From the NCBI GenBank assembly GCA_014800895.1, contig JAAVFG010000023.1, forward strand, positions 48,095 through 112,094: 64,000 bases of DNA, in the 5' to 3' direction. A program made the position numbers and the translations under genes. This DNA is from Bacteroidales bacterium (GTDB lineage: Bacteria > Bacteroidota > Bacteroidia > Bacteroidales > Muribaculaceae). Shown here in pieces: positions 7,579 through 21,915 of this stretch. The notes below the pieces were generated by a model. It was not told the DNA's origin. It searched no databases and was given only the letters and a program-made list of their open reading frames with translations. Each line of letters starts with the position of its first letter. The first letter of the stretch is position 1.

Positions 7579-9276
7579 ATGCGGATACTCTCTTACTGTG
7601 TATTGATACTTATTGCTGTCTATGGTCTGTACAGTTGTGCGGACCATAGACATAATGATATATTTGACCGGGCGGAGTCGATGATGGAGTCTCATCCCGA
7701 CTCGGCGTTAGCATTGCTTGAAAGTATAGATAGGGATGAGATAGGGAATAAGAAGGATAAGGCACGCTATGCACTGCTGATGTCGATGGCACTTGATAAG
7801 AACTTTATCGACACCACTTCTTTTGATGTGCTGCAGCCGGCGATAGACTATTATCTTCCCGGGAAGGATACTAAGGAAAAGTTACGGACATATTACTATA
7901 AAGGTGTCATTCATCTTAATCGCGGCGAGAGGGATCTGGCTTGGCAGAGCATACATCGTGGACTGGAGTTGATACCGGAAAGCAGGGATACACTCTATAT
8001 AGCCCGTATGCTTTCAATTAAAGGTTTTTTTTACTTTGAGATGTGGGAATTTGACCAGTATATGAATTATAATCTGGAGGCGTATAAATTATTCAGGAAG
8101 CATTCGTGTACGAGTCAGGAATACATATGTCTTCTATCAGCTTTTTGCGGAGCAATATTGTCTAAAGACAGAGCGATGGCGGATAGTCTGCTTCCTGTAA
8201 TGAAAAGTTATGAAGGACAGGATGGTTTGGATCAGGCAAGGCTATATGATAACCTGCTGGGATATAACATTAATTATGGTAGTGACTCCGCTCTCAGGAA
8301 AACGCTTCAGGATTGTGAGAGATTCACGTATCCTGATGAGGGTTTCAACCTTCGGCGTGCTCGTGCATACAGTCGGCTTGGATATCCCGAAAAGGGAAAG
8401 GAAATCCTTGACTCGATAGAAAGAACCGGGATAGTGGATAGCATTCAGTATGGCGCGATATTGTATAACGTGTTGGAAGCACAAGGTGATTATAAGGGAG
8501 CATATGAGTCCTATAAATATTATTCTCACCTTTTGGGTCGAATAGAAGGAGAGAAATTTGATGATAAGATATATAGCATAGAAAATACTCACACCCTTGA
8601 AAGCGAATTACGAACTAAGGAGGAGAGGAATCGCAGAATGACGCTTTATTGGTCGTTCGGTGTTGTTATTCTTATCCTATTGATTATATTGCTGTATGTA
8701 CGTTATCGTTTTGTCAGAAATAAGAGAAAACTGGCGGAGGCACAGACGTTATCATTAGATTTATTAGTAAAACAAATAGAGGCGGATGCTAAAAACCTAA
8801 GCCAACGTCTTATGATTGTAAGGGAGGAGCGCGACTACTTGAAAACACTTCTTGATAATAAGATGGCATTCCCATTGGAGTTGAAACAGAGGATCTATGA
8901 CCGTTTGCATTTACTGAATGATTTCCTGAAAGAATGTATTGTAAATGATAGCCGGGTTGCTGAGGATAATGATAGGATTTTGAGCAAGCTGATCGATCAT
9001 CCTGATGTCTTTATGACTAAAAACAGGGAGGTGATCGAGGCTGCCTATCCGGCGTTCATGGAGTATCTGAAAAATCATGGCTTGACTCCGGATGAGATTA
9101 ATTATGTATGTCTATATGCAACGGGATTAAATGGTAAGCAGGTAGGGGCTTTCCTCAAGAAGAAAGGTCATACTAATCTCAGTAGCAGGATTGGTAAGAA
9201 ACTTGGGGTGAGCGATTCCAATACCAACCTGCGTAGCTTCGTCTGGAAATTATTAAAGGAAGAAGAATCACGATAA
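7579..9276 (+). CDS. TPR/transmembrane/HTH (LuxR-like) regulator
   Basis: 565 aa; N-terminal lipobox-like LYSCADH, TPR region, TM WSFGVVILILLIILLYV, C-terminal HTH-like EINYVCLYATGLNGKQVGAFLKKKGHTNLSSRIGKKLGVSDSNTNL. Confidence 0.75.
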   Translation: MRILSYCVLILIAVYGLYSCADHRHNDIFDRAESMMESHPDSALALLESIDRDEIGNKKDKARYALLMSMALDKNFIDTTSFDVLQPAIDYYLPGKDTKEKLRTYYYKGVIHLNRGERDLAWQSIHRGLELIPESRDTLYIARMLSIKGFFYFEMWEFDQYMNYNLEAYKLFRKHSCTSQEYICLLSAFCGAILSKDRAMADSLLPVMKSYEGQDGLDQARLYDNLLGYNINYGSDSALRKTLQDCERFTYPDEGFNLRRARAYSRLGYPEKGKEILDSIERTGIVDSIQYGAILYNVLEAQGDYKGAYESYKYYSHLLGRIEGEKFDDKIYSIENTHTLESELRTKEERNRRMTLYWSFGVVILILLIILLYVRYRFVRNKRKLAEAQTLSLDLLVKQIEADAKNLSQRLMIVREERDYLKTLLDNKMAFPLELKQRIYDRLHLLNDFLKECIVNDSRVAEDNDRILSKLIDHPDVFMTKNREVIEAAYPAFMEYLKNHGLTPDEINYVCLYATGLNGKQVGAFLKKKGHTNLSSRIGKKLGVSDSNTNLRSFVWKLLKEEESR

Positions 9277-9406
9277 ACGAGCAATTTTTAGGAATTCTGA
9301 TTGCACGTTGAACTTTTTTATGTCAATTTTTTTGAAATATAGTTGTATTTTTCTGTAAATTACTGATAATTAATTAAATAAAAAGGATCAATATAGAACT
9401 GATATA

Positions 9407-9438
9407 TTTGGAGATTAAACTTTATACTATTACTTTTG
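9407..9438 (+). promoter_or_regulatory. Promoter TTTG-N20-TACTTTTG with embedded TTAAACTTT motif
   Basis: TTTG 9407-9410, TTAAACTTTA 9415-9424, TACTTTTG 9431-9438; spacing identical to the promoter at 10948-10979. Confidence 0.7.
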
Positions 9439-9467
9439 TGGCGTTGTAATATTATAAAGTAGTTGAG

Positions 9468-9833
9468 ATGAATAGAATCATATGTGTATTGATCGTGATT
9501 TTTGTGGTAGTATCAGCAGGGTATCCTTATGAGCTGCCAGCAGATGCGGATAAGGAGATAGAGATGACGTCAAGGGAAAAGCCCCAACAACCCGTTCGAC
9601 CACGCGCGCCTATGCGATTAGATCTTAAAGCCTATTATTATGCGGGTCCGGGTCTTATTGAGGTTGTATACAATGGAGCGGCGGAAGGCGTGGTGAATTT
9701 ATACTTGGACGGTATGTTGATCGACCATGCGGAGCAACTCAATTGTTCTTTTCAGGTAAATGGGGGAGGATTTTATGAAATTGAGGCAGTGACAGAGAGC
9801 TGGATTGCTGCAGGTCAGTTTACATTAAATTGA
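9468..9833 (+). CDS. Small secreted DUF3244-like protein
   Basis: 121 aa; signal peptide MNRIICVLIVIFVVVSAGYPYE, then a short beta-rich domain ending GQFTLN. Confidence 0.55.
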   Translation: MNRIICVLIVIFVVVSAGYPYELPADADKEIEMTSREKPQQPVRPRAPMRLDLKAYYYAGPGLIEVVYNGAAEGVVNLYLDGMLIDHAEQLNCSFQVNGGGFYEIEAVTESWIAAGQFTLN

Positions 9834-10009
9834 AATCCTTTGATATTACATTGATATTGACCATCATTAAGATCACGCTGTCAATGAAACTCTTCATTTG
9901 TTAATTTGGTTTAAAAGTAAACACACTCTAAGCCCTTGATAAAAGAGGGTGGATATATAGAGTAAAATCAGAAAAATAGGTTTTTAGTTGATATAATAAT
10001 GGAAGTATA

Positions 10010-10690
10010 TAGGTTCTTCCCCTTTGGTGGGGAGAGCCTATATATCTTTTTAGGCTCCTGCAATGCAAGCCGCGGAGCGGTGAGTCTTTGTTTAACCTTC
10101 GGTAAGGGCACAGCCCGCAGCCGGGGGGATAAGCCTAAGCAAGAGCACTCCGCCGCGGAGCGGTGGGTTCTTGTTACCGCATTAGCTGATGTAATGGAAG
10201 ACCGACCGCGCCGCGGCCGCGGAGACGCACGAGGTTTAGAACCGTGGGCTGCGGCGTTCCGCCTCACCCCCGGTTAAACAAGGACTCGCCGCTCCGCGGC
10301 TACCATCCGGATCCTACTGTCCTCCTGTCTAAAATATATTCTACTGTCCTCCTGTCTAAATTTTCTATAACACAGGTGAGTCTCGGATTCGCACGGATGC
10401 TTCACATATGGGGGATTTTTTCTTTGCATAGGTTTGTGGGATAGTCATTGATTGGATAGGTTGAAGATGTTAAATCCTTAAAAGGATTTCAAATCCCATT
10501 CCACTGTAAAGATCTAAATATCTGTGAAACATCTGCGCTAATCTCTGAAAGATCTGTGATATTATTTTTAATCAATATAATTATATTTAATTTTCTTCGG
10601 GCATCGAGCCCTCGAAATTTAGCGGAAGCCGGGAGGCTCCCGCCCCCAGTCGCCGCCATCTCCCGGCGGTCAGTCTATACGGAAATGAGG
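10010..10690 (-). repeat. Composite GC-rich intergenic repeat element (copy 2)
   Basis: Reverse complement shares several modules with 3298-3800, with modules partly permuted. Confidence 0.75.
10068..10302. repeat. Inverted repeat with about 30-bp arms inside composite element copy 2
   Basis: AGCCGCGGAGCGGTGAGTCTTTGTTTAACC (10068-10097) versus GGTTAAACAAGGACTCGCCGCTCCGCGGCT (10273-10302), near-perfect inverse. Confidence 0.85.
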
Positions 10691-10840
10691 ATAGAGCCGG
10701 GGATACCCCTCTTTGTAGAATCATCTGATGAAAATATAGACCCATTAACTCTATATGAAATAATCATAATAAAGCCATGTAAAGATAATATTAGTAAAAG
10801 TAAAAAATGATACCAATATATTGCCTTAAAAAGGTAGGTG

Positions 10841-10965
10841 TTAAACTTTTTCAGAGGTCGTTAAACTTTTATTTTCAAGAAATTTTGTAACTGATTGATA
10901 CATAGAAAAATAAAAATGTAAAAAGATATAAAATATTAAACTTTATTTTTGGTGATTAAACTTTT
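10841..10965 (+). promoter_or_regulatory. Two pairs of TTAAACTTTT direct repeats, exactly 20 bp apart within each pair
   Basis: Copies start at 10841, 10861, 10936 and 10956. Confidence 0.8.
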
Positions 10966-10979
10966 TCCGTCTAATTTTG
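10948..10979 (+). promoter_or_regulatory. Promoter TTTG-N20-TAATTTTG of the barrel/exporter operon
   Basis: TTTG 10948-10951 and TAATTTTG 10972-10979, upstream of the 11034 ORF. Confidence 0.7.
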
Positions 10980-11033
10980 CACTCAATAATTCCCTGGTAA
11001 AACAGACCATACTGTTGACAAACAATATAACAC

Positions 11034-13412
11034 ATGAATAGAATTGCATTAGTATTTTTTATCCTGTTTCTGAATGTTGCCACGATGGCGAGAGCCGAGT
11101 CGGAGAGTTGCGAAGGTACTCTCACGGGCAGAGTGACAAGTAAAGGTGGCAATCCAATCGAGGGAGCGTATGTTTTTATCTGGGATAATGCGGAGAATCA
11201 ACGTATTCTGACCGGCGAATTTACTGATGCAAACGGATTATTCAATATCTCTCTTCCATGTGGAAAGTATGTTATGGTAATCTCCTGTTTAGGATATGAG
11301 CCTGCGAGATATGATGTCTCGACAGAAGAGGGGAAGAAGTATGAATTAGGAGAGTTGTCACTTTTGGAGAATACTCAGGAATTGCAGACTGTTATGGTGA
11401 AAGGCAGCCGAATGAGGGTCAGGACTCTTCCTGACGGGTTCTCCGTGAATGTAAGTGAGTTGGCTAAGTCCAGTAATAACGCGCTCGACTTGTTAGGCAG
11501 ATTGCCACAGATAAGAGTTAAGGGAAATGACCTGAAAGTAATTGGTAAAGACAATATTATCCTTAGAGTGAATAACGTGACACAGCGCGTCAGCGCCGAG
11601 GAATTGCCCAACGTCTTAAAAGGTTATGATGCATCCTTGATAAAGTCAGTAGATGTGATCACGTCCCCGGCAGTAAAGTATGATGCGGATGGCAGCACTG
11701 CCATGATCATTCTCCATATGGATTCCAAATTCAATAAATATGTGGGCGGAAATATCGGAACGGAATTGATGAAAGGATCCGGGTATAACGGTAGATATGG
11801 AGTCTATGGATCAGTGGTATTCAACAACAATAAGTTATTTGTGGATGTCACACCGTCATATAACCATAATTTTTCACAATTCCATGAAAATACCACTCAT
11901 AAATATAATGATGGAAAGACCTACTCGAGCTATAGCCCTTCAAGAGGATTCAATAACTATGTAGGCGGGTATGCAACTCTACAATACCAGTATGATAAAA
12001 GCGGATATTTAGGGGTGAATTGTAATGTCAGCACCAAATCAACAAATAACAGTTTTATATCAGAGGAGGAATACGAGATTGCCACATTCAATCACAATAA
12101 GTTAGATATTCATACGCCACGTGTAAATGCTTCCATGTACGTGGAGCAGTCCTTGTCCAATTCGATGAGAGGCTGGCTCGAACTGACTTACTACAACTAC
12201 CGGGACAATTCTGATCAGAAATTCGAAGGAAGCTATGATAGGAATAGTAATCCTTTTATGGAATATTCAACTGAACAGAAACTGAGAACTAACGGACTGT
12301 CATTTGCCAATGACTACTCGTTGTCGGTAGGGGAAGAGAGAAATTTCAATGTGGATTTCGGAATCAAGGGATATTACACACGGATGAATAATTCACGCGA
12401 CAATGCATTGATGGAAGAGGGATTTGATTATTGGAGTCAGTTAGACCGTCTGACCTTGGATGAGACAAAGATTAATCCCTATGTGAGTCTTACTTACCGT
12501 CCCAATCCTATACTTTTTTTCCGGCTTGGCGCACAGGTGGCATATACCAATAGAAAGGTATCAAATGAAAATATTGATAGAAAGAGCCTGAACTACACCA
12601 ATTTTCTGCCGGATTTCATCGCATCCTGGTCTCCTCGTTATGATACAAAGCTTTCTCTTATAATTAACTCCGGGTCGGTCGAGCCGAAATTCAATCAGAT
12701 TAATCCCTTTGAATGGAGAGGAAGTCAGTATACGTATTATAGAGGTAATCTGGATTTGAAGAGTGAGAGCCGGTATTTCTATCGTGCCATATATACATAT
12801 CGCGAAAGTCTGTCAGTCACCGCCTATGCAAACCATAAGCGCAATCAGATATCATCAATAAGCCAGCTTATTGACGGGAATCTCTATTATACTACACAAA
12901 ACGCGCAGAACAGCACAGAGTATGGTATCCGTCCGTCATATTATTTTGACAGATTGGATTGGATGGAATTGTCGGTTGAGGCATATTGGGCTTATGGCAT
13001 TTCCAAAGGAATAGTAGAAGGGATAAGGGACCGAAGCACATCCAATTTGTGGGGAGGTAATCTTTATGCGGGTTTCGTGTTCAATAAGTCCCGCACGTTT
13101 ACGGGGTATATAAATATGGATTATACCGGTAGACAGCGTACAACGATTGCCACGATTGACCCCAGATTTGATTTAGGAGCAGGAGTATCATGGGCATTGC
13201 TTGACAGAAAAATGAATATTTCACTCTCCGGACTGAATTTATTCTCCAGCGCCTATAAAGGTAAGAGCTACAGGTCCGGATATACAACCTACTTTAATAA
13301 TAGATATGATGTCCCGACTTTATATCTGTCTATCACTTATAAATTCAATAATGTTAAAGATGTATCTTCTCGCCGTCAGAAGAGTGTAAGAAATGTGGAG
13401 CAAAGAATGTAA
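11034..13412 (+). CDS. Outer membrane beta-barrel protein with CarboxypepD-like domain (PF14905-like)
   Basis: 792 aa; signal peptide, GRVTSKGGNPIEGAYVFI regulatory-like domain, plug-like DLLGRLPQIRVKGNDLKV, C-terminal barrel. Confidence 0.85.
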   Translation: MNRIALVFFILFLNVATMARAESESCEGTLTGRVTSKGGNPIEGAYVFIWDNAENQRILTGEFTDANGLFNISLPCGKYVMVISCLGYEPARYDVSTEEGKKYELGELSLLENTQELQTVMVKGSRMRVRTLPDGFSVNVSELAKSSNNALDLLGRLPQIRVKGNDLKVIGKDNIILRVNNVTQRVSAEELPNVLKGYDASLIKSVDVITSPAVKYDADGSTAMIILHMDSKFNKYVGGNIGTELMKGSGYNGRYGVYGSVVFNNNKLFVDVTPSYNHNFSQFHENTTHKYNDGKTYSSYSPSRGFNNYVGGYATLQYQYDKSGYLGVNCNVSTKSTNNSFISEEEYEIATFNHNKLDIHTPRVNASMYVEQSLSNSMRGWLELTYYNYRDNSDQKFEGSYDRNSNPFMEYSTEQKLRTNGLSFANDYSLSVGEERNFNVDFGIKGYYTRMNNSRDNALMEEGFDYWSQLDRLTLDETKINPYVSLTYRPNPILFFRLGAQVAYTNRKVSNENIDRKSLNYTNFLPDFIASWSPRYDTKLSLIINSGSVEPKFNQINPFEWRGSQYTYYRGNLDLKSESRYFYRAIYTYRESLSVTAYANHKRNQISSISQLIDGNLYYTTQNAQNSTEYGIRPSYYFDRLDWMELSVEAYWAYGISKGIVEGIRDRSTSNLWGGNLYAGFVFNKSRTFTGYINMDYTGRQRTTIATIDPRFDLGAGVSWALLDRKMNISLSGLNLFSSAYKGKSYRSGYTTYFNNRYDVPTLYLSITYKFNNVKDVSSRRQKSVRNVEQRM

Positions 13413-13462
13413 CGCTTCATTATTCCCACGATAAGAAGGATAAGGTCATTAAATAATCGGTT

Positions 13463-15826
13463 ATGAGAAAATCATGTGTTTTCCTGTTTGTGGTTCTCAG
13501 CATATTGGAAATATATGCTGAGAGCGTGACATTAAAGGTAGTGGAGAAAGAGAGTGGGGAAGTCATCCCCTTTGCTGCGGTAACAGCGGAGTATAAGGAC
13601 AGTATTGTCAGCGGAATGACAGATGAAGCGGGAATATACAGCTTCACTCCACTCTCTTTACCAGTAAATATAAAGGTCAACTCTTTCGGGATGAATAGTT
13701 GGAGCGGCAGGATTAATGCCGTTAATGATACGGTCTTTATCGTAGGGATGGAGAGTGCCGGCACGAGACTGCAGGAGCTGACTGTAACCGGGCGTCTGAC
13801 GCGCCAGACCGATTCGGGAATCTCATATAATATGTCAGCCAATAAGCGTGCGCAACAGGAAAACAGCCTTCAGGCGTTATCCTATGTGCCGTTGGTAAAT
13901 GTCACTCCGGAGGGTATGATAAGTGTACAGGGTTCTCCGAGCTATAGTCTATATCTGAACGGCAGACCTTACGATATGGCACAGACCTCGCCGAAAGTCT
14001 TTCTCGAATCTCTTCCGGCATCGGATATAATGAGAGTGGAGGTGATCACGCGTCCGGATAATAGGTATGGAGCCGACAACCGTTATATCCTTAATATTGT
14101 CCTGAAGCAACCTATGCTGGATGGCTATGTTGTCAATCTGGGAGGAGGCGGTTCTACGCAGCCTACTGCCGACGGCTCTTTTATGGGAATGATCAGAAGA
14201 AACAGAGTCAATGCCGCAATCAGTTATAAATACGGATTCAACGGTCAGCACGACCAGCCATCGGATATCACCTATACGGAACGTGATGCGCAGAATGATG
14301 TGAGTCATATCTGGAAGAATGATCTTAAGGGAAACGGATCATGGCATACACATACAATACGCGCGATGATGAAATGGGAAATTGACAGTGTGAATTCTAT
14401 CTATGGAGATGCACATGGGGAAATCTTACGTAATAATTTTACAACGCATGCAATAGAATCCGAGATTTTTCCCGAATTGACCGAACCGCTTATCAGATAT
14501 ACTGATCGCTCTCATTATACATCCGGGGCAGCCGAAGCAAATATCATTTACCGTAATTATTTCAGGGATGCAAAGACTACGGAAAGATTCACTCTCGGTT
14601 ACCGCTATACATATAATCCGGACAAACGGGACATATTGCAAAATATAGAATATGGTAATCCCCAAGCCGGTACGAACCGCCAGCGCACGAGCGGAGGACT
14701 GAATGCACACAGCGGTGTTGTTTCCTATCTTTTACGTCCCGCTGCATATCAAACGGTACGTTTCACGCTGACCGAGAATTATCGTGCAGGCCATACAGAG
14801 TCATTTTATAGTGATGATGGTTCAGAAGAACGGAGTGGTCTTAGCATGCGTTACCGCAATAATATCGTCGGACTGAAAGCCGCCTATTCGGGCTGGGTAA
14901 AGCGAGTGTATTGTCAGATAAGTCTGCAGGGAGACTATGATTATATCTCGATGAAATTACCGTCGGCAGAGGGTCTCGACTATATCCGCAGACGCTTCTA
15001 TTTATTGCCTTCCGCTACTTTCTTCTGGTATCCGCAACAGGAAAATGTGGTGATGCTAAGCTATGCCGCTACGCTGACGCGCCCCGGTATTGAAATGTTG
15101 AATCCATTTGAAAGCAGCTCCAACCAACATTCGGCAAGTAAGGGAAACCCGAATCTGAAAGCTCAGTATAATCATGACGTTAACCTTATGTGGTATTGGA
15201 CTCAAGTGAATAATCTTGTATTGGTAGCAGGGCTACAGTATGGATTTATGGATAATCTCATACTGGAGGACTACAGCGTTGAGGCAGAAAAGATGATATA
15301 TTCCTATTCCAATTTCGGAAAGGCTCATCAGATAGAGGGAAGTTTCGACATAAGGTATAATCCGAAGAATTGGCTTTCTTTCTCCATAAACGGCGGTGTC
15401 GGAAAACGATGGCTCAGCAGTGATCACCCTATGCTCCGACAGGATAATATTTTTTACAGGATAACACCCAGGATTGATTTTTATTTACCGAATCATTTCA
15501 GGGTGGGCGGTCATTATGGACTGTACAAGAATCTGCCTGATCCATGGAGTAGCCGATCTTCATTGAGTCTTTATTCATTCTATGTAAGTAAGAGTTTCGT
15601 GAGAGGGCGTTTGAATGTTACATTGACTGCAAATTCTCCTTTCACCAGGTATAATCTGAATCATGTCCATACCTCATTGCCCACAATGGAGAGAGAGCAG
15701 AATAATTATATTACCGCTCGCTCATTCGGAGTGAATATTTCATATTCCTTCGGAGGAGGAAAGCGTGTGAATGTGGAAAGAGACCGTTCTCTTGAGACAA
15801 AAGACATTTCCACGGGCGTGAGGTAA
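13463..15826 (+). CDS. Outer membrane beta-barrel protein (PF14905-like)
   Basis: 787 aa; signal peptide, QALSYVPLVNVTPEGMISVQGSPSYSLYLNGRPY plug, TRPGIEMLNPFESSSNQHSASKGNPNLKAQYNHDVNLMW barrel motif. Confidence 0.85.
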   Translation: MRKSCVFLFVVLSILEIYAESVTLKVVEKESGEVIPFAAVTAEYKDSIVSGMTDEAGIYSFTPLSLPVNIKVNSFGMNSWSGRINAVNDTVFIVGMESAGTRLQELTVTGRLTRQTDSGISYNMSANKRAQQENSLQALSYVPLVNVTPEGMISVQGSPSYSLYLNGRPYDMAQTSPKVFLESLPASDIMRVEVITRPDNRYGADNRYILNIVLKQPMLDGYVVNLGGGGSTQPTADGSFMGMIRRNRVNAAISYKYGFNGQHDQPSDITYTERDAQNDVSHIWKNDLKGNGSWHTHTIRAMMKWEIDSVNSIYGDAHGEILRNNFTTHAIESEIFPELTEPLIRYTDRSHYTSGAAEANIIYRNYFRDAKTTERFTLGYRYTYNPDKRDILQNIEYGNPQAGTNRQRTSGGLNAHSGVVSYLLRPAAYQTVRFTLTENYRAGHTESFYSDDGSEERSGLSMRYRNNIVGLKAAYSGWVKRVYCQISLQGDYDYISMKLPSAEGLDYIRRRFYLLPSATFFWYPQQENVVMLSYAATLTRPGIEMLNPFESSSNQHSASKGNPNLKAQYNHDVNLMWYWTQVNNLVLVAGLQYGFMDNLILEDYSVEAEKMIYSYSNFGKAHQIEGSFDIRYNPKNWLSFSINGGVGKRWLSSDHPMLRQDNIFYRITPRIDFYLPNHFRVGGHYGLYKNLPDPWSSRSSLSLYSFYVSKSFVRGRLNVTLTANSPFTRYNLNHVHTSLPTMEREQNNYITARSFGVNISYSFGGGKRVNVERDRSLETKDISTGVR

Positions 15827-15979
15827 AAGTGTGAAAATAATTTACTCGCCCTTTCTATGTAAGAATCTATATAGAAAACTAAATAAATATGAGGGAAGAA
15901 ATCTCGAAACATGCCACCTGCTTAAAGATGGCATGGAAGATATGTTATATTGTCATTTTTTAACTAAAAACTTAGAGAA

Positions 15980-16420
15980 ATGAGGAGAATTTTATTTTTT
16001 CTTGTAGTTGTGTGTAGTGGTCTGCTTCCATTTATATCACTGGATGCAGAGACAGTACAGCCCAAGACACCAAAGGAGAAATGGTATCGTGTCCGTACGG
16101 ATGTTATAGATTCCGTGACCTTAAAGCCGGTGGCTGTGAAGTATCGACTGATATCAGAAAAGGATTCAACAGAGATACTGACCGGAGAGTCTGAATATGA
16201 ACGTTGGCTCTCTTATGACGGTGAGCATGAGGTTGAAAAAATAAATCTGATTCTTCCGGATTACGATGAACGATACTTGCTTGAGGTAAAAGGAAAGAAC
16301 TATGTGCCAAAGATTATTCCTTTGGACTTCACGCATCTTAATTTTGACGAGATTCCATTGGATAAAAGATGGAGTAGAATAGATGATGTATTATTAACCA
16401 AGCAATCAAAAAAGAAATGA
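15980..16420 (+). CDS. Secreted 146-aa protein resembling the isolated N-terminal domain of the neighbouring barrel
   Basis: Signal peptide; YLLEVKGKNYVPKIIPLDFTHLNFDEIPLD resembles YIIEIFKEGYTPHYINLGTDRLKNVSLNLG of the 16587 ORF. Confidence 0.6.
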   Translation: MRRILFFLVVVCSGLLPFISLDAETVQPKTPKEKWYRVRTDVIDSVTLKPVAVKYRLISEKDSTEILTGESEYERWLSYDGEHEVEKINLILPDYDERYLLEVKGKNYVPKIIPLDFTHLNFDEIPLDKRWSRIDDVLLTKQSKKK

Positions 16421-16518
16421 AGATTCAGTTGATTGAAAAACCTCAGGCGGGTATTTTATCCTCCGAGGAGACCGCGGCTATCTTTGGCGCCCGGTCATTC
16501 TTTCCACTAATCCAATAA
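16417..16518 (+). CDS. Candidate double-glycine-leader precursor peptide (33 aa)
   Basis: MKIQLIEKPQAGILSSEETAAIFGARSFFPLIQ; LSSEETAAIFGA fits LSxxExxxIxG(G/A). ATGA overlap with the upstream stop. C39-peptidase exporter in the same gene cluster. Below the ORF-track length cutoff. Confidence 0.6.
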   Translation: MKIQLIEKPQAGILSSEETAAIFGARSFFPLIQ

Positions 16519-16529
16519 TGATATTCACG

Positions 16530-16556
16530 GGAGCTTCGGCTGTAAGCCGAGGCTCC
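16530..16556 (+). terminator. Hairpin after the small peptide ORF (partial terminator/attenuator)
   Basis: GGAGCTTCGGCT-GTA-AGCCGAGGCTCC (12-bp stem with one G-U), followed by TCAATAGCATTTTTATAA. Confidence 0.6.
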
Positions 16557-16586
16557 TCAATAGCATTTTTATAATTAATCTAACAG

Positions 16587-19418
16587 ATGCGATTAAATTC
16601 CCTGACTTTATTTATCCTGTTTATATCAATCCTTATGACGCCCTGTCATGTTAACGCTAAGGAAGTTTATATCACCGGTCAGGTATTTGACCAACGCAGT
16701 AAAGGGAAGCTTCCGGGAGCAGAAGTTAAACTGCGGAATATGAATGATAGCTCCATAGTGGCATCTACAAAGGCTGAGGGATTGATAATCAATACCGGCG
16801 ACACGACCGTTACATCTACATTTAGATTATATACGCCTGATAATAAGACCGAGTACATTATTGAGATTTTCAAGGAAGGGTACACTCCACACTATATTAA
16901 TCTGGGCACTGATCGTCTTAAGAATGTAAGCCTGAATTTAGGAAATCTTTATCTGCGCCCTGAGGTCAATACCTTGTCGGAATTAACCGTGACCGCATCC
17001 AAGGTAAAATTTTACAATAAAGGGGATACGATAGTCTATAATGCAGATGCCTTCATCTTGCCGGACGGAAGTATGCTGGATGCATTAATCCGCCAGTTGC
17101 CCGGAGTGGAGCTCCGTAGCAACGGGCAGATATATGTGAATGGGAAATTTGTGGATAATCTTGTACTCAATGGCAAAGATTTCTTCAAGGGAGATAAAAA
17201 TGTGATGCTTGAGAATCTCGGCGCCTATACGGTAAAAAATATCAAGGTATATGAGGAGTTGACAGGGGTCGATAAGTTGATAGGAGTTTCCACAACAGGC
17301 AAGAAGAACTTAGTCATGGATGTAAGGCTTAAGAAGGATTACATGGATTCATGGCTTGGAAATTTTATGGCAGGATATGGAAGCTCGAAGAGATATACGG
17401 GCAGATTGTTTCTTTCGCGTCTGACCCCGAGAAGCCGTGTCTCTCTGTTTGGAAATTTCAACAATATAAATGAGACCCGAAAACCGGGAGAGAGGGATCC
17501 GGAGTGGAATCCTTCGAAAATAGAGACCGGTATCAGGGAAACGCTGGCAGGAGGTATAGATTATTTTTATGACTTCCCGGATAATAGGTGGAAAGTGTCC
17601 GGCAACGCTATGGTGAAGCATGTAGATCTTAAGGATGGCACATCAACTGCCAATACCATTTTCCTTGAGCCACGATTCAATTACGACTATTCGCACACAG
17701 ATATCCATAACCGGGATCTGGATGTCACCACAGAGCATAAGGTCAAACTGGAGACTGAGAAATTAATGTGGTCGTTGACTCCAACATTCACATATCAGCA
17801 CCGTAGAGGGAAAGTGAATAATACAGAGGCATTATTCTCAGAAGAACAGTCGGATTGGAGCAAGGATTTCATAAGAAATATTTATGCGGGAGGTGATAGT
17901 GTCCGAAATATGATAAATAGAAAGATTTCTGATGAGGAGAATCATTCCAATAAGATAGAGTATGACCTTTCATCAAGCATGGTATGGAAAATACCCAATA
18001 CGCTTAATGTCCTTATCGTGCAAGGGGGTATAAACGGAAGATATCAGAAAGAGGAGAATAATGAATATTATTTGCTTGACTTTCCTAATCAGCCGGAGAT
18101 GAACAGTGCACTGTTAAGAAACTTTAATTACGAGCCGAATAAGAATTAAGCTTATAATTTAGGGGTGGGCTATTCGCATAGGTTGCGACGAGGTATATAT
18201 TTGCGCTTTACATATGATTTCAAGAACAACATAAAGCATATGGGGCGGACGATATATGATTATGAAGATGCGGATGACGGAAAATTTAAAGCTCCCTCTT
18301 ATCATGAGCAATCAGATGGAAGAGAAGATGTCAACAATAGCTATCGTTATAGGCTAACGAATATGATACATTCACTGTCGCCGGGATTAAATATTTCGCT
18401 TGGAAACTTATGGGTACAGTTGTCATGGCCTTTCATAATAGCCACAGATAATCTGCATTATTGGAGAGGTGATTATTATAAGTCGATACGCAGGACGAAT
18501 TTGTTATTTGAGCAGAGTAATAATTCATTCGTGCAGTATCAGTATAAGGGGAATACATGGTTTGCTACCGCGACGTATACTACCAAAGCTCCCGATCTCC
18601 TGGATGTGATTGATGTGACAGATACATCTAATCCTCTTGTGATAGAGAAAGGCAATCCGGATCTTAAGAAGAGCGGTCTGCTCAAAGTGAGTGCTTCCTA
18701 TAGCTTCTCTAAACCTCGAGACAGATTTAGTGTCGACCTGTTATTTGATTACAACGCTGTACATAATGCTTTGGCTAAAGGGGCTGTCTATGACGAGGCT
18801 ACCGGCGTGAAGACTGTCAGCACATATAATGTAAATGGTAACAGGTCAATGGTATTGCGTAATTACCTTAACTATGAATTCGGACCTATGAAAATGTTTT
18901 CTATCAGGCATCTCTTATCCGCTACTTATCGCAAGAGCGTTGATGTGATTGGCATAACCAACAGTATAGGTCTGAACACGGTATATAGTCATGGTATCGG
19001 AGAGGATTTATCTTTTGGTGTCACACATTCCGGACAGAAAATCTCCCTGACAGGAAACATAGACTATTCCCGCTATTCGGGAGATGCGCGCTTCAATCCC
19101 CTTGAGTTTCATTATGGAGTGCTGGGAGTGTTCAAGCTTCCGTTCGGATTGGGGATAAATACAGATTTCACCATCTATAGCAGGAGACATTATCAGGATA
19201 AAGCATTGAATACGAATAATTATATCTGGAATATGCGTCTGACTTACGGATTCCTGAAGGGAAGTCTTCTCTTGACGGTCGACGGCTTTGATATATTGCA
19301 TGATTTGAGCAATGTTTTCTATACAGTTAATGCTCAGGCACGAACTGAGACTTATCGTACTGTACTCCCACGCTATATTATGGTTGGACTGCAGTGGAAA
19401 TTCAATACAAAGAAGTGA
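16587..19418 (+). pseudogene. Outer membrane beta-barrel protein interrupted by an in-frame TAA (or split gene)
   Basis: The 520-aa ORF (16587-18149) and 417-aa ORF (18165-19418) are in the same frame, separated by TAA at 18147-18149 and AYNLG. The second half starts at a GTG and completes the barrel. Confidence 0.8.
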
Positions 19419-19471: not shown

Positions 19472-21667
19472 GTGAGAAAGCGATTTGAATGGATAAAACA
19501 GCATGACTCGATGCAATGCGGAGTGGCGTGTCTGGCAATGATATGCCGCCATTATGGACGAGAATATGACATTGACTATCTGGATGAGTATTGTCATGCG
19601 AGTAATACCGGCGTTTCGCTTCTCGGGATAAAAGAGGGCGCTGAGGCTGTCGGTCTGGAGGCGACCGGTGTGGCTCTCTCCATAAATCAGCTCAAGGAAC
19701 TGACACTGCCATGTATCCTTCATTGGAATCAGAATCATTTCGTGGTTCTATATGGCATTTCTAAAAATGGAAAGAAGTACCATATAGCCGATCCGGGAAA
19801 AGGATTGAGAGATGTTGATGCCGCTGAGCTGGAGCAGCACTGGATAAGCACTGTGAGACACGATGTGCCGGCAGGAGTGGCGATGCAACTGATACCGACA
19901 GAGGAATTTTACAGTCATTCAGCTCCTCCGAAGAGCCCGAAACGCTCATTCCGTTTTCTTTTGGGGTATATCCTGCAATATAGGAAATACTTTGCGCAAA
20001 TCATTCTCGGTCTTGGACTCGGATGTGTGCTACAGCTGATCATGCCCTTCTTGACACAATGGATCGTCGATATCGGGATACGCCACAGCGACATAAGATT
20101 TATCTGGCTCGTCCTGTTGGGCGAGCTTATGATAGTGGTCGGGCGTACCGCCACCGACTTCATCCGCCGCTGGCTTCTGCTTCATATTTCGATGCGCATC
20201 AACATCTCGCTTGTGAGCGACTTCTTCATAAAGCTTCTCAAGCTCCCGATGTCCTTTTTCGACACCAAGCTTATGGGGGATCTTCTGCAGCGGATAGGCG
20301 ACCACTCGAGAGTGCAGAATTTTCTGACAGGGCAGACACTCAACATCATCTTCACGTTATTGAGTTTCCTGATATTCGGGATAGTGCTGTGTGTCTACAG
20401 TCCGCTTATCTTCGGAGTCTTTCTTGCAGGGAGCCTGATTTACGGGGCATGGATCTCGACCTTCCTGCGGCGGCGGAAGGTATTGGATTACGAGCTCTTC
20501 GAGCAGCAGGCGATAAATCAGAACAAGACCTATGAATTCATCACCTCGATGCAGGAGATCAAGCTTCAGGACTGTGAGCGTCGTCGCCGGTGGGAATGGG
20601 AGGACACTCAGGCAGATCTGTTTGCAGTGCAGATGAAGGTGCTTAAGCTTCAGCAGAGTCAGGAGGCAGGGTCTGTATTCATCAACGAGATAAAGAATAT
20701 CCTCATCACGGTCCTTGCTGCCACCTCCGTGATCCGTGGAGAAATGACGTTGGGAGCGATGCTTGCCGTTCAGTATATCATCGGACAGCTCAACTCCCCG
20801 GTGGAGCAGCTTATGAGCTTTATCTATTCCCTTCAGGATGTCAGGATCTCCCTCGAGCGCATCAACGAGATTCATGAGGGGAGGAATGAGGAGAACAGCG
20901 ACAATCGTCTGACAGATTTTGAGGGTGAAAAAGATATAGAGATAGAAGGAGTGAATTTCAAGTATGACAGACATTCCTTGAAAAAGACCCTTGATGATGT
21001 CAGCTTCACTATCCCTTCGGGTAAGGTTACGGCGATAGTTGGTGCGTCGGGTAGCGGCAAGACGACCCTGATCAAACTGATGTTAGGCTATTACGGACCG
21101 CTCGGAGGGCGTATACTGATATCGGGAAAGGAAATCGGCTCATATAATCTGAAATGGTGGCGGCGTCATTGCGGGGTGGTGATGCAGGATGGCGTCATCT
21201 TCTCGGAATCAATAGGCCGCAACATAGCTGTAGATGACAGGGATATCGATATGGCTCGTCTTGAGAAAGCCGCGAGGATAGCGAATATCCATGATTATGT
21301 CATGGGGTTGCCGTTGAAGTATAACACGAAGATAGGGCGGGACGGGAACGGGCTTAGCCAGGGCCAGAAACAGCGGATACTGATAGCGCGAGCCGTCTAC
21401 CGCAATCCTGACTTCATCTTCCTTGACGAGGCGACGAATGCGCTTGATGCCGGAAACGAGCGTGTGATAGTGGAGAATCTCGATGCGTTCTACCGTGGGC
21501 GGACAGTAGTAATAGTTGCACACCGTCTCTCTACAGTAAAGAATGCGGACCGTATCATCGTATTGGATGGAGGCAGGATAGTGGAGGAGGGCAATCATGC
21601 CACATTGATAGAAAAGAGAGGATATTACTATAATCTTGTAAAGAATCAGCTTGAGCTGGGAGAATAG
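19472..21667 (+). CDS. Peptidase C39-containing ABC exporter (PCAT/bacteriocin type)
   Basis: 731 aa; C39 Cys motif HDSMQCGVACLAMICRHYG and catalytic HWNQNHFVVLYGI/IADPGKG; ABC VGASGSGKTTLIKL, LSQGQKQRILIARAVYRNPDFIFLDEATNALD. Confidence 0.95.
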   Translation: MRKRFEWIKQHDSMQCGVACLAMICRHYGREYDIDYLDEYCHASNTGVSLLGIKEGAEAVGLEATGVALSINQLKELTLPCILHWNQNHFVVLYGISKNGKKYHIADPGKGLRDVDAAELEQHWISTVRHDVPAGVAMQLIPTEEFYSHSAPPKSPKRSFRFLLGYILQYRKYFAQIILGLGLGCVLQLIMPFLTQWIVDIGIRHSDIRFIWLVLLGELMIVVGRTATDFIRRWLLLHISMRINISLVSDFFIKLLKLPMSFFDTKLMGDLLQRIGDHSRVQNFLTGQTLNIIFTLLSFLIFGIVLCVYSPLIFGVFLAGSLIYGAWISTFLRRRKVLDYELFEQQAINQNKTYEFITSMQEIKLQDCERRRRWEWEDTQADLFAVQMKVLKLQQSQEAGSVFINEIKNILITVLAATSVIRGEMTLGAMLAVQYIIGQLNSPVEQLMSFIYSLQDVRISLERINEIHEGRNEENSDNRLTDFEGEKDIEIEGVNFKYDRHSLKKTLDDVSFTIPSGKVTAIVGASGSGKTTLIKLMLGYYGPLGGRILISGKEIGSYNLKWWRRHCGVVMQDGVIFSESIGRNIAVDDRDIDMARLEKAARIANIHDYVMGLPLKYNTKIGRDGNGLSQGQKQRILIARAVYRNPDFIFLDEATNALDAGNERVIVENLDAFYRGRTVVIVAHRLSTVKNADRIIVLDGGRIVEEGNHATLIEKRGYYYNLVKNQLELGE

Positions 21668-21696: not shown

Positions 21697-21915
21697 ATGG
21701 AGGAGAAAAACTCAGCTGAAACGGAGGGAAAGGATATGGATGTGCGTAGTGAGAAAGTAAGGAAACTTATAGAGGCGCGAGCACCTCTGATGGTGAGATG
21801 GGGAACGTTGGTAATATTCCTTGTCGTTGTAGCTCTTCTTGCCGCCGTGTCGCAGTTGCCCTATCCCTACTCGGAGGGGGAATCAATTTTAAGCCATATA
21901 TTTATGGGGAAGTAG
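21697..21915 (+). CDS. 72-aa single-TM protein resembling the N-terminal anchor of HlyD-family adaptors
   Basis: VRSEKVRKLIEARAPLMVRWGTLVIFLVVVALLAAVSQLPYPYSEG resembles Bacteroidetes HlyD N-termini; stops just after the TM. Confidence 0.6.
   Translation: MEEKNSAETEGKDMDVRSEKVRKLIEARAPLMVRWGTLVIFLVVVALLAAVSQLPYPYSEGESILSHIFMGK

Follow-up and report, generated by a model that had tools for sequence, protein, structure and literature searches.

Radical-SAM RiPP clusters with PCAT exporters and GG leaders have been described in the Bacteroidales, including RiPP clusters that carry PCAT and outer-membrane protein genes and lack an identified membrane-fusion protein (Fernandez-Cantos et al., 2023, PMC10352776). 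The locus examined here lies in a stretch of 64,000 nucleotides of a Bacteroidales bacterium of the Muribaculaceae (the window). Going by their description, the published clusters resemble it in the GG-type leader, in the C39 PCAT, in several cases in an outer-membrane protein gene without a recognised membrane-fusion protein and, as far as the ancestral form of the window locus is concerned, in the radical-SAM enzyme; the window locus differs from them in having neither the enzyme nor a modifiable core. TIGR04149 (GG_sam_targ_CFB), the NCBIfam model for radical-SAM-modified RiPPs of Bacteroidetes, represents peptides that are alike in their short GG-type leader, in their occurrence in Bacteroidetes and in the radical-SAM partner found in the relatives of our peptide. 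However, the window peptide does not match this model, and its relatives reach scores of only 9-11 bits, below the cut-off of 25. Double-glycine peptides of the ComC and lantibiotic types share with the window peptide the GA leader end, hydrophobic residues at positions -4 and -12 and an exporter in the operon, whereas the latter has Thr at -7 and a core much shorter than that of its relatives, and no receptor was identified for it. A further radical-SAM/SPASM-C39 cluster, for which no published description was found, is present in Heminiphilus faecis AM35 (NZ_VSMC01000001, loci L020 and L181). Its gene order from the regulator through to a mini membrane-fusion protein is that of the window, but its radical-SAM gene is intact, its precursor has a 38-residue core with four Cys, its outer-membrane protein is uninterrupted and the two outer-membrane genes inserted in the window, omp1 and omp2, are absent.

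In the H. faecis locus (L020) the genes encode, in this order, a regulator, a 122-aa secreted protein, a 425-aa radical-SAM/SPASM protein with a SPASM domain above the TIGR04085 cut-off, a 167-aa protein, a 64-aa precursor, a 961-aa outer-membrane protein, the exporter and a 65-aa protein. The window carries the regulator in the same place (7579-9276, + strand; 38% identity), as a 565-aa TPR/transmembrane protein with a probable C-terminal HTH. It is followed by a 121-aa secreted protein (9468-9833, +; 34% identity to the 122-aa protein that precedes the radical-SAM gene in H. faecis) and, further downstream, by a 146-aa secreted protein (15980-16420, +; 33% identity to the 167-aa protein), which has one clear homologue among 198 family genomes, namely that of H. 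faecis AM35. The C39 peptidase-containing ABC exporter that the initial annotation had placed downstream on the same strand was found at 19472-21667 (+); it is intact, has 69% identity to its Heminiphilus counterpart and matches Pfam Peptidase_C39 (E 1.8e-35) and ABC_tran (E 9e-32). The sequence TTAAACTTT occurs five times in the 64 kb (at 9415, 10841, 10861, 10936 and 10956; 0.55 copies expected), with one copy 5' of the gene for the 121-aa protein and two pairs, each with a spacing of exactly 20 bp, 5' of omp1. These copies are possible candidate sites for the cluster regulator; none was found in the Heminiphilus locus.

Between the genes for the 146-aa protein and the cluster outer-membrane protein lies an ORF of 33 aa, MKIQLIEKPQAGILSSEETAAIFGARSFFPLIQ followed by a stop codon, at 16417-16518 (+). 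As first described, its start ATG shares the tetranucleotide ATGA with the TGA of the preceding 146-aa CDS, and a hairpin follows, which on re-examination comprises 13 bp at 16529-16557 (+; -26.2 kcal/mol, z -5.9), is succeeded by a T-run and is probably a (partial) terminator 3' of a precursor gene. Pfam and NCBIfam searches with the 33-aa sequence gave no match, and with the same query against 297 family genomes the best E value outside its own genome was 0.04, the same core being found in no relative. The relatives of the ORF were reached via the neighbouring genes and not via direct searches with the 33 residues. Leader profiles were derived independently from these homologous precursors, with the window sequence left out of the building set, and placed the 33-aa ORF at the top of 1,833 open frames, with E values of 1.7e-4 (four leaders; runner-up frame E 3), 7.7e-5 (nine leaders; runner-up 2.9) and 2e-4 (two full precursors; runner-up 0.17). 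With its first rank among the 1,833 frames, the ORF is no chance frame and is a homologue of the radical-SAM RiPP precursors. In the comparison between species the 25 leader codons keep a protein-coding pattern with mostly silent differences (0.29-0.35 nonsynonymous versus 0.69-0.96 synonymous differences per site). Hence the equality of synonymous and nonsynonymous change that had been named as an argument against the frame was not seen in the leader, and the claim of a protein-coding frame with a double-glycine-type leader stood.

The arrangement of the ORF raises the alternative that the frame is kept as a translation-coupling or leader-type ORF which, together with the hairpin, sets downstream expression, with the peptide itself being inert. 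The ATGA coupling to the preceding gene and the strong hairpin with its T-run 3' of the frame are compatible with such a role, and the H. faecis precursor likewise has a 13-bp hairpin after it, at the same position. However, RiPP precursor genes ordinarily have hairpins behind them, so that no regulatory ORF is required, and the leader resembles the precursor family as a protein and differs mostly at silent sites; we regard this alternative as very unlikely.

The leader of the remnant precursor (16417-16491, +; profile E 7.7e-5) ends in GA, which is listed with GG and GS among the cleavage motifs accepted by C39 peptidases (PMC10885120). Ile at -4 and Leu at -12 agree with the rule for hydrophobic positions and Thr at -7 does not. 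The initial annotation had noted this Thr in the place of Leu; the window leader has it in common with the two closest intact precursors, so that within the family it would not be a deviation. The H. faecis precursor, MNRIKLIEAPQMIEMTREETDRILGG/WSCQTYTTFWYKSNECREYYKHGNGQCLNGNNYCGKYT, lies between the counterparts of the two genes that flank the 33-aa frame, and in the genus of the window itself one species (genome G354, loci L162 and L180) has a radical-SAM gene (75% identical), a precursor, MNKIQLIEEPLMAKMTMEETANTLGG/WHCGKYMDPFNGGGACTEYYSSGPGACSGTNNYCGVYN, and an outer-membrane protein gene in the same order. Among the family precursors found elsewhere, 11 of 11 have an intact radical-SAM gene next door and cores of 36-71 residues with 4-9 Cys. 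Conserved leaders with variable cores adjoining C39 exporters, as the initial annotation had anticipated, were thus seen in the relatives. Intact precursors were recorded in the Muribaculaceae and Hoylesella timonensis (loci L180, L181, L098, L108, L204, L166, L168, L169 and L209); they share a leader of the form K-[IF]-x-[LIF]-I-[ED]-x-P...GG, and their Cys-rich cores adjoin radical-SAM/SPASM genes. Neither an NCBIfam or Pfam model for these intact precursors nor, in the open-licence literature, a published description was found. Taken as a group, they delimit a precursor family of Muribaculaceae and Hoylesella in which many cores contain W-x-C.

Compared with these relatives, the window peptide has GA in place of GG and a shortened core, RSFFPLIQ (16492-16518 including the stop codon, +), of eight residues without Cys, which reads R-S-F where close relatives read W-x-C. 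When 52 loci with related exporters were searched by pattern, no precursor with an equally short core turned up. In the window DNA 3' of the leader no leftover core homology above that of shuffled sequences was detected; since the cores of the two intact relatives are themselves hardly alignable as DNA, this absence decides nothing, and the loss of the core is untraceable base by base.

The second difference from the intact clusters concerns the modifying enzyme. Within 9200-17000 no significant trace of a radical-SAM gene was found apart from its last ~33 codons. These lie in an ORF at 15831-15983 (+; homology 15873-15971), are identical to the C-terminus of the Heminiphilus protein (P0004) at 26 of 33 positions and lead by an ATGA overlap into the gene for the 146-aa protein. 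Over 30 comparable codons, the remnant and the H. faecis AM35 gene (genome G013) show 10 silent and 6 replacement differences, and the two intact genes show 13 and 3, respectively; these counts suggest that the radical-SAM gene was lost recently. A close radical-SAM homologue was not found elsewhere in the window's own genome. With a 31% partial match as the best in the genome, no close enzyme that could act in trans from another site came to light. A second C39 exporter of this genome (L101, G000:C20:1-10500), 37% identical, has a distant radical-SAM gene of its own.

The place of the radical-SAM gene is taken by a repeat mosaic and two outer-membrane genes. The mosaic of dispersed repeats (10053-10713), which matches its own genome at 134 places, counting itself, forms the left edge of the segment and is followed by omp1 (11034-13412, +; OMP_b-brl_3, E 7e-40) and omp2 (13463-15826, +; OMP_b-brl_3, E 1e-31), both encoding outer-membrane beta-barrel proteins, both intact and both probably inserted; omp2 has no counterpart in the H. 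faecis locus. Within the genus, 110 further genomes yielded no close homologue of omp1, and homologues with 50-56% identity are present in another genus. In a locus from another genus of the Muribaculaceae (L291, 8073-13689) a radical-SAM/SPASM gene, an omp1 homologue and a C39 exporter are consecutive and lie at a contig end. A locus of this type is the probable type of source for omp1 and omp2. With omp1 foreign to the genus and its homologue situated between a radical-SAM/SPASM gene and a C39 exporter, the insert has the appearance of a piece of a sister cluster.

A replaced segment bordered by a dispersed repeat, in an assembly of 57 contigs with an estimated contamination of 4.7%, could also arise by misassembly, in which case the organism would have the radical-SAM gene and a full core, and the window would join pieces of two clusters. 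However, homologues of a single cluster lie on either side of the replaced piece, which makes a chance join unlikely, and the radical-SAM tail continues unbroken into the gene for the 146-aa protein. The rest of the assembly has no close radical-SAM gene, and the short core, 0.5 kb from the junction, would require a separate error. We therefore give hardly any credence to a misassembly.

A third lesion affects the cluster outer-membrane protein (16587-19418, +), which is interrupted by an in-frame stop codon at 18147-18149. Like the radical-SAM tail, this stop had been overlooked initially. Each half shares 53-56% identity with the undivided 961-aa protein of H. faecis, and both are otherwise well conserved; a frameshift was ruled out as the nature of the lesion. 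The second half, judged from its sequence, would begin without a signal peptide. An error of assembly or variation between strains could account for this single stop. On the window branch the amount of amino-acid change is similar in the leader (0.28) and in the two halves of the outer-membrane protein (0.25 and 0.22), which gives no indication of prolonged relaxation; any decay would be recent.

Taken together, we consider it likely that the 33-aa ORF is what remains of the precursor gene in a recently wrecked cluster for a radical-SAM-modified, C39-exported RiPP. In the ancestral state, as in H. faecis, the leader (KIxLIExP...EET...LGG) would direct the radical-SAM/SPASM enzyme to a Cys-rich core, the C39 exporter would cleave after GG and release the modified peptide, presumably a radical-SAM cross-linked, Cys-rich product, and the outer-membrane protein would serve as its outlet or receptor. 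Recombination at the dispersed repeats may then have replaced the radical-SAM gene by outer-membrane genes of a sister cluster, leaving the last ~33 codons in place. Afterwards, the core would have been reduced to eight residues without Cys and the outer-membrane partner would have acquired its stop. At present such a locus would produce at most the unmodified leader with RSFFPLIQ, and a function is probably absent.

The intact exporter is a point against a wrecked cluster. It also agrees with the original proposal that the ORF encodes a working exporter substrate, such that C39 would cut after GA and the unmodified octapeptide RSFFPLIQ would be exported as a pheromone. The leader is homologous to those of C39-linked precursors and changes between species as a protein would, C39 peptidases are known to cut at GA (PMC10885120), the cluster includes a regulator, and the intact omp1 and omp2 could provide an outlet or receptor. 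On the other hand, the family contains no second precursor with such a short core or without cysteine, no relative with the same core was found among the 297 genomes, the enzyme that belongs to the cluster has been deleted and its outer-membrane protein is interrupted, and the nearby regulator belongs to the intact radical-SAM cluster as well. Of the original proposal, the reading of the leader and its connection with the exporter hold. The unmodified eight-residue pheromone would be at odds with relatives that are Cys-rich and accompanied by a radical-SAM enzyme; given the loss of enzyme and Cys and the interrupted partner, it has the intact exporter as its one support, and we judge it unlikely. 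We consider it distinctly unlikely that a RiPP system has here been caught losing its enzyme and becoming a system for secretion of an unmodified short peptide, with the outer-membrane genes from the sister cluster as outlet or receptor.

Directly 3' of the exporter, the window encodes a 72-aa single-TM protein (21697-21915, +) resembling a mini membrane-fusion protein. It belongs to a family of 65-72-aa single-TM proteins that is encoded directly 3' of the C39 exporter at 38 of the 45 loci where this could be tested, has further members in H. faecis (L020, 14189-14386) and at about 40 other loci, and gave no match in Pfam or NCBIfam. The short members have a conserved tail, PYPYSxGESI. In the related Hoylesella timonensis cluster the same place is occupied by a 437-aa HlyD-type protein (L204, 11045-12358; HlyD_3, E 4e-13), the N-terminus of which is matched by the profile of the short family (E 2e-15). 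Throughout the order the stretch occurs both in long open frames (about 440 codons) and in shorter ones (about 150-230 codons); the latter include frames of intermediate length, about 160-200 codons, one of which (L292, 4590-5078) likewise lies directly 3' of a C39 exporter. From these sequence comparisons, the short protein looks like a membrane-fusion protein shrunk to an N-terminal stub, and this stub may fill the place of the membrane-fusion protein missing from RiPP clusters with PCAT and outer-membrane protein genes. The family bears on those Bacteroidales peptide exporters that have no recognised membrane-fusion protein.

The locus illustrates that a small ORF may be a fossil even when its leader is convincing, since the leader can survive longer than the enzyme and the core. 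For this reason, pheromone calls based on motifs only need a check of the neighbouring genes for remnants.
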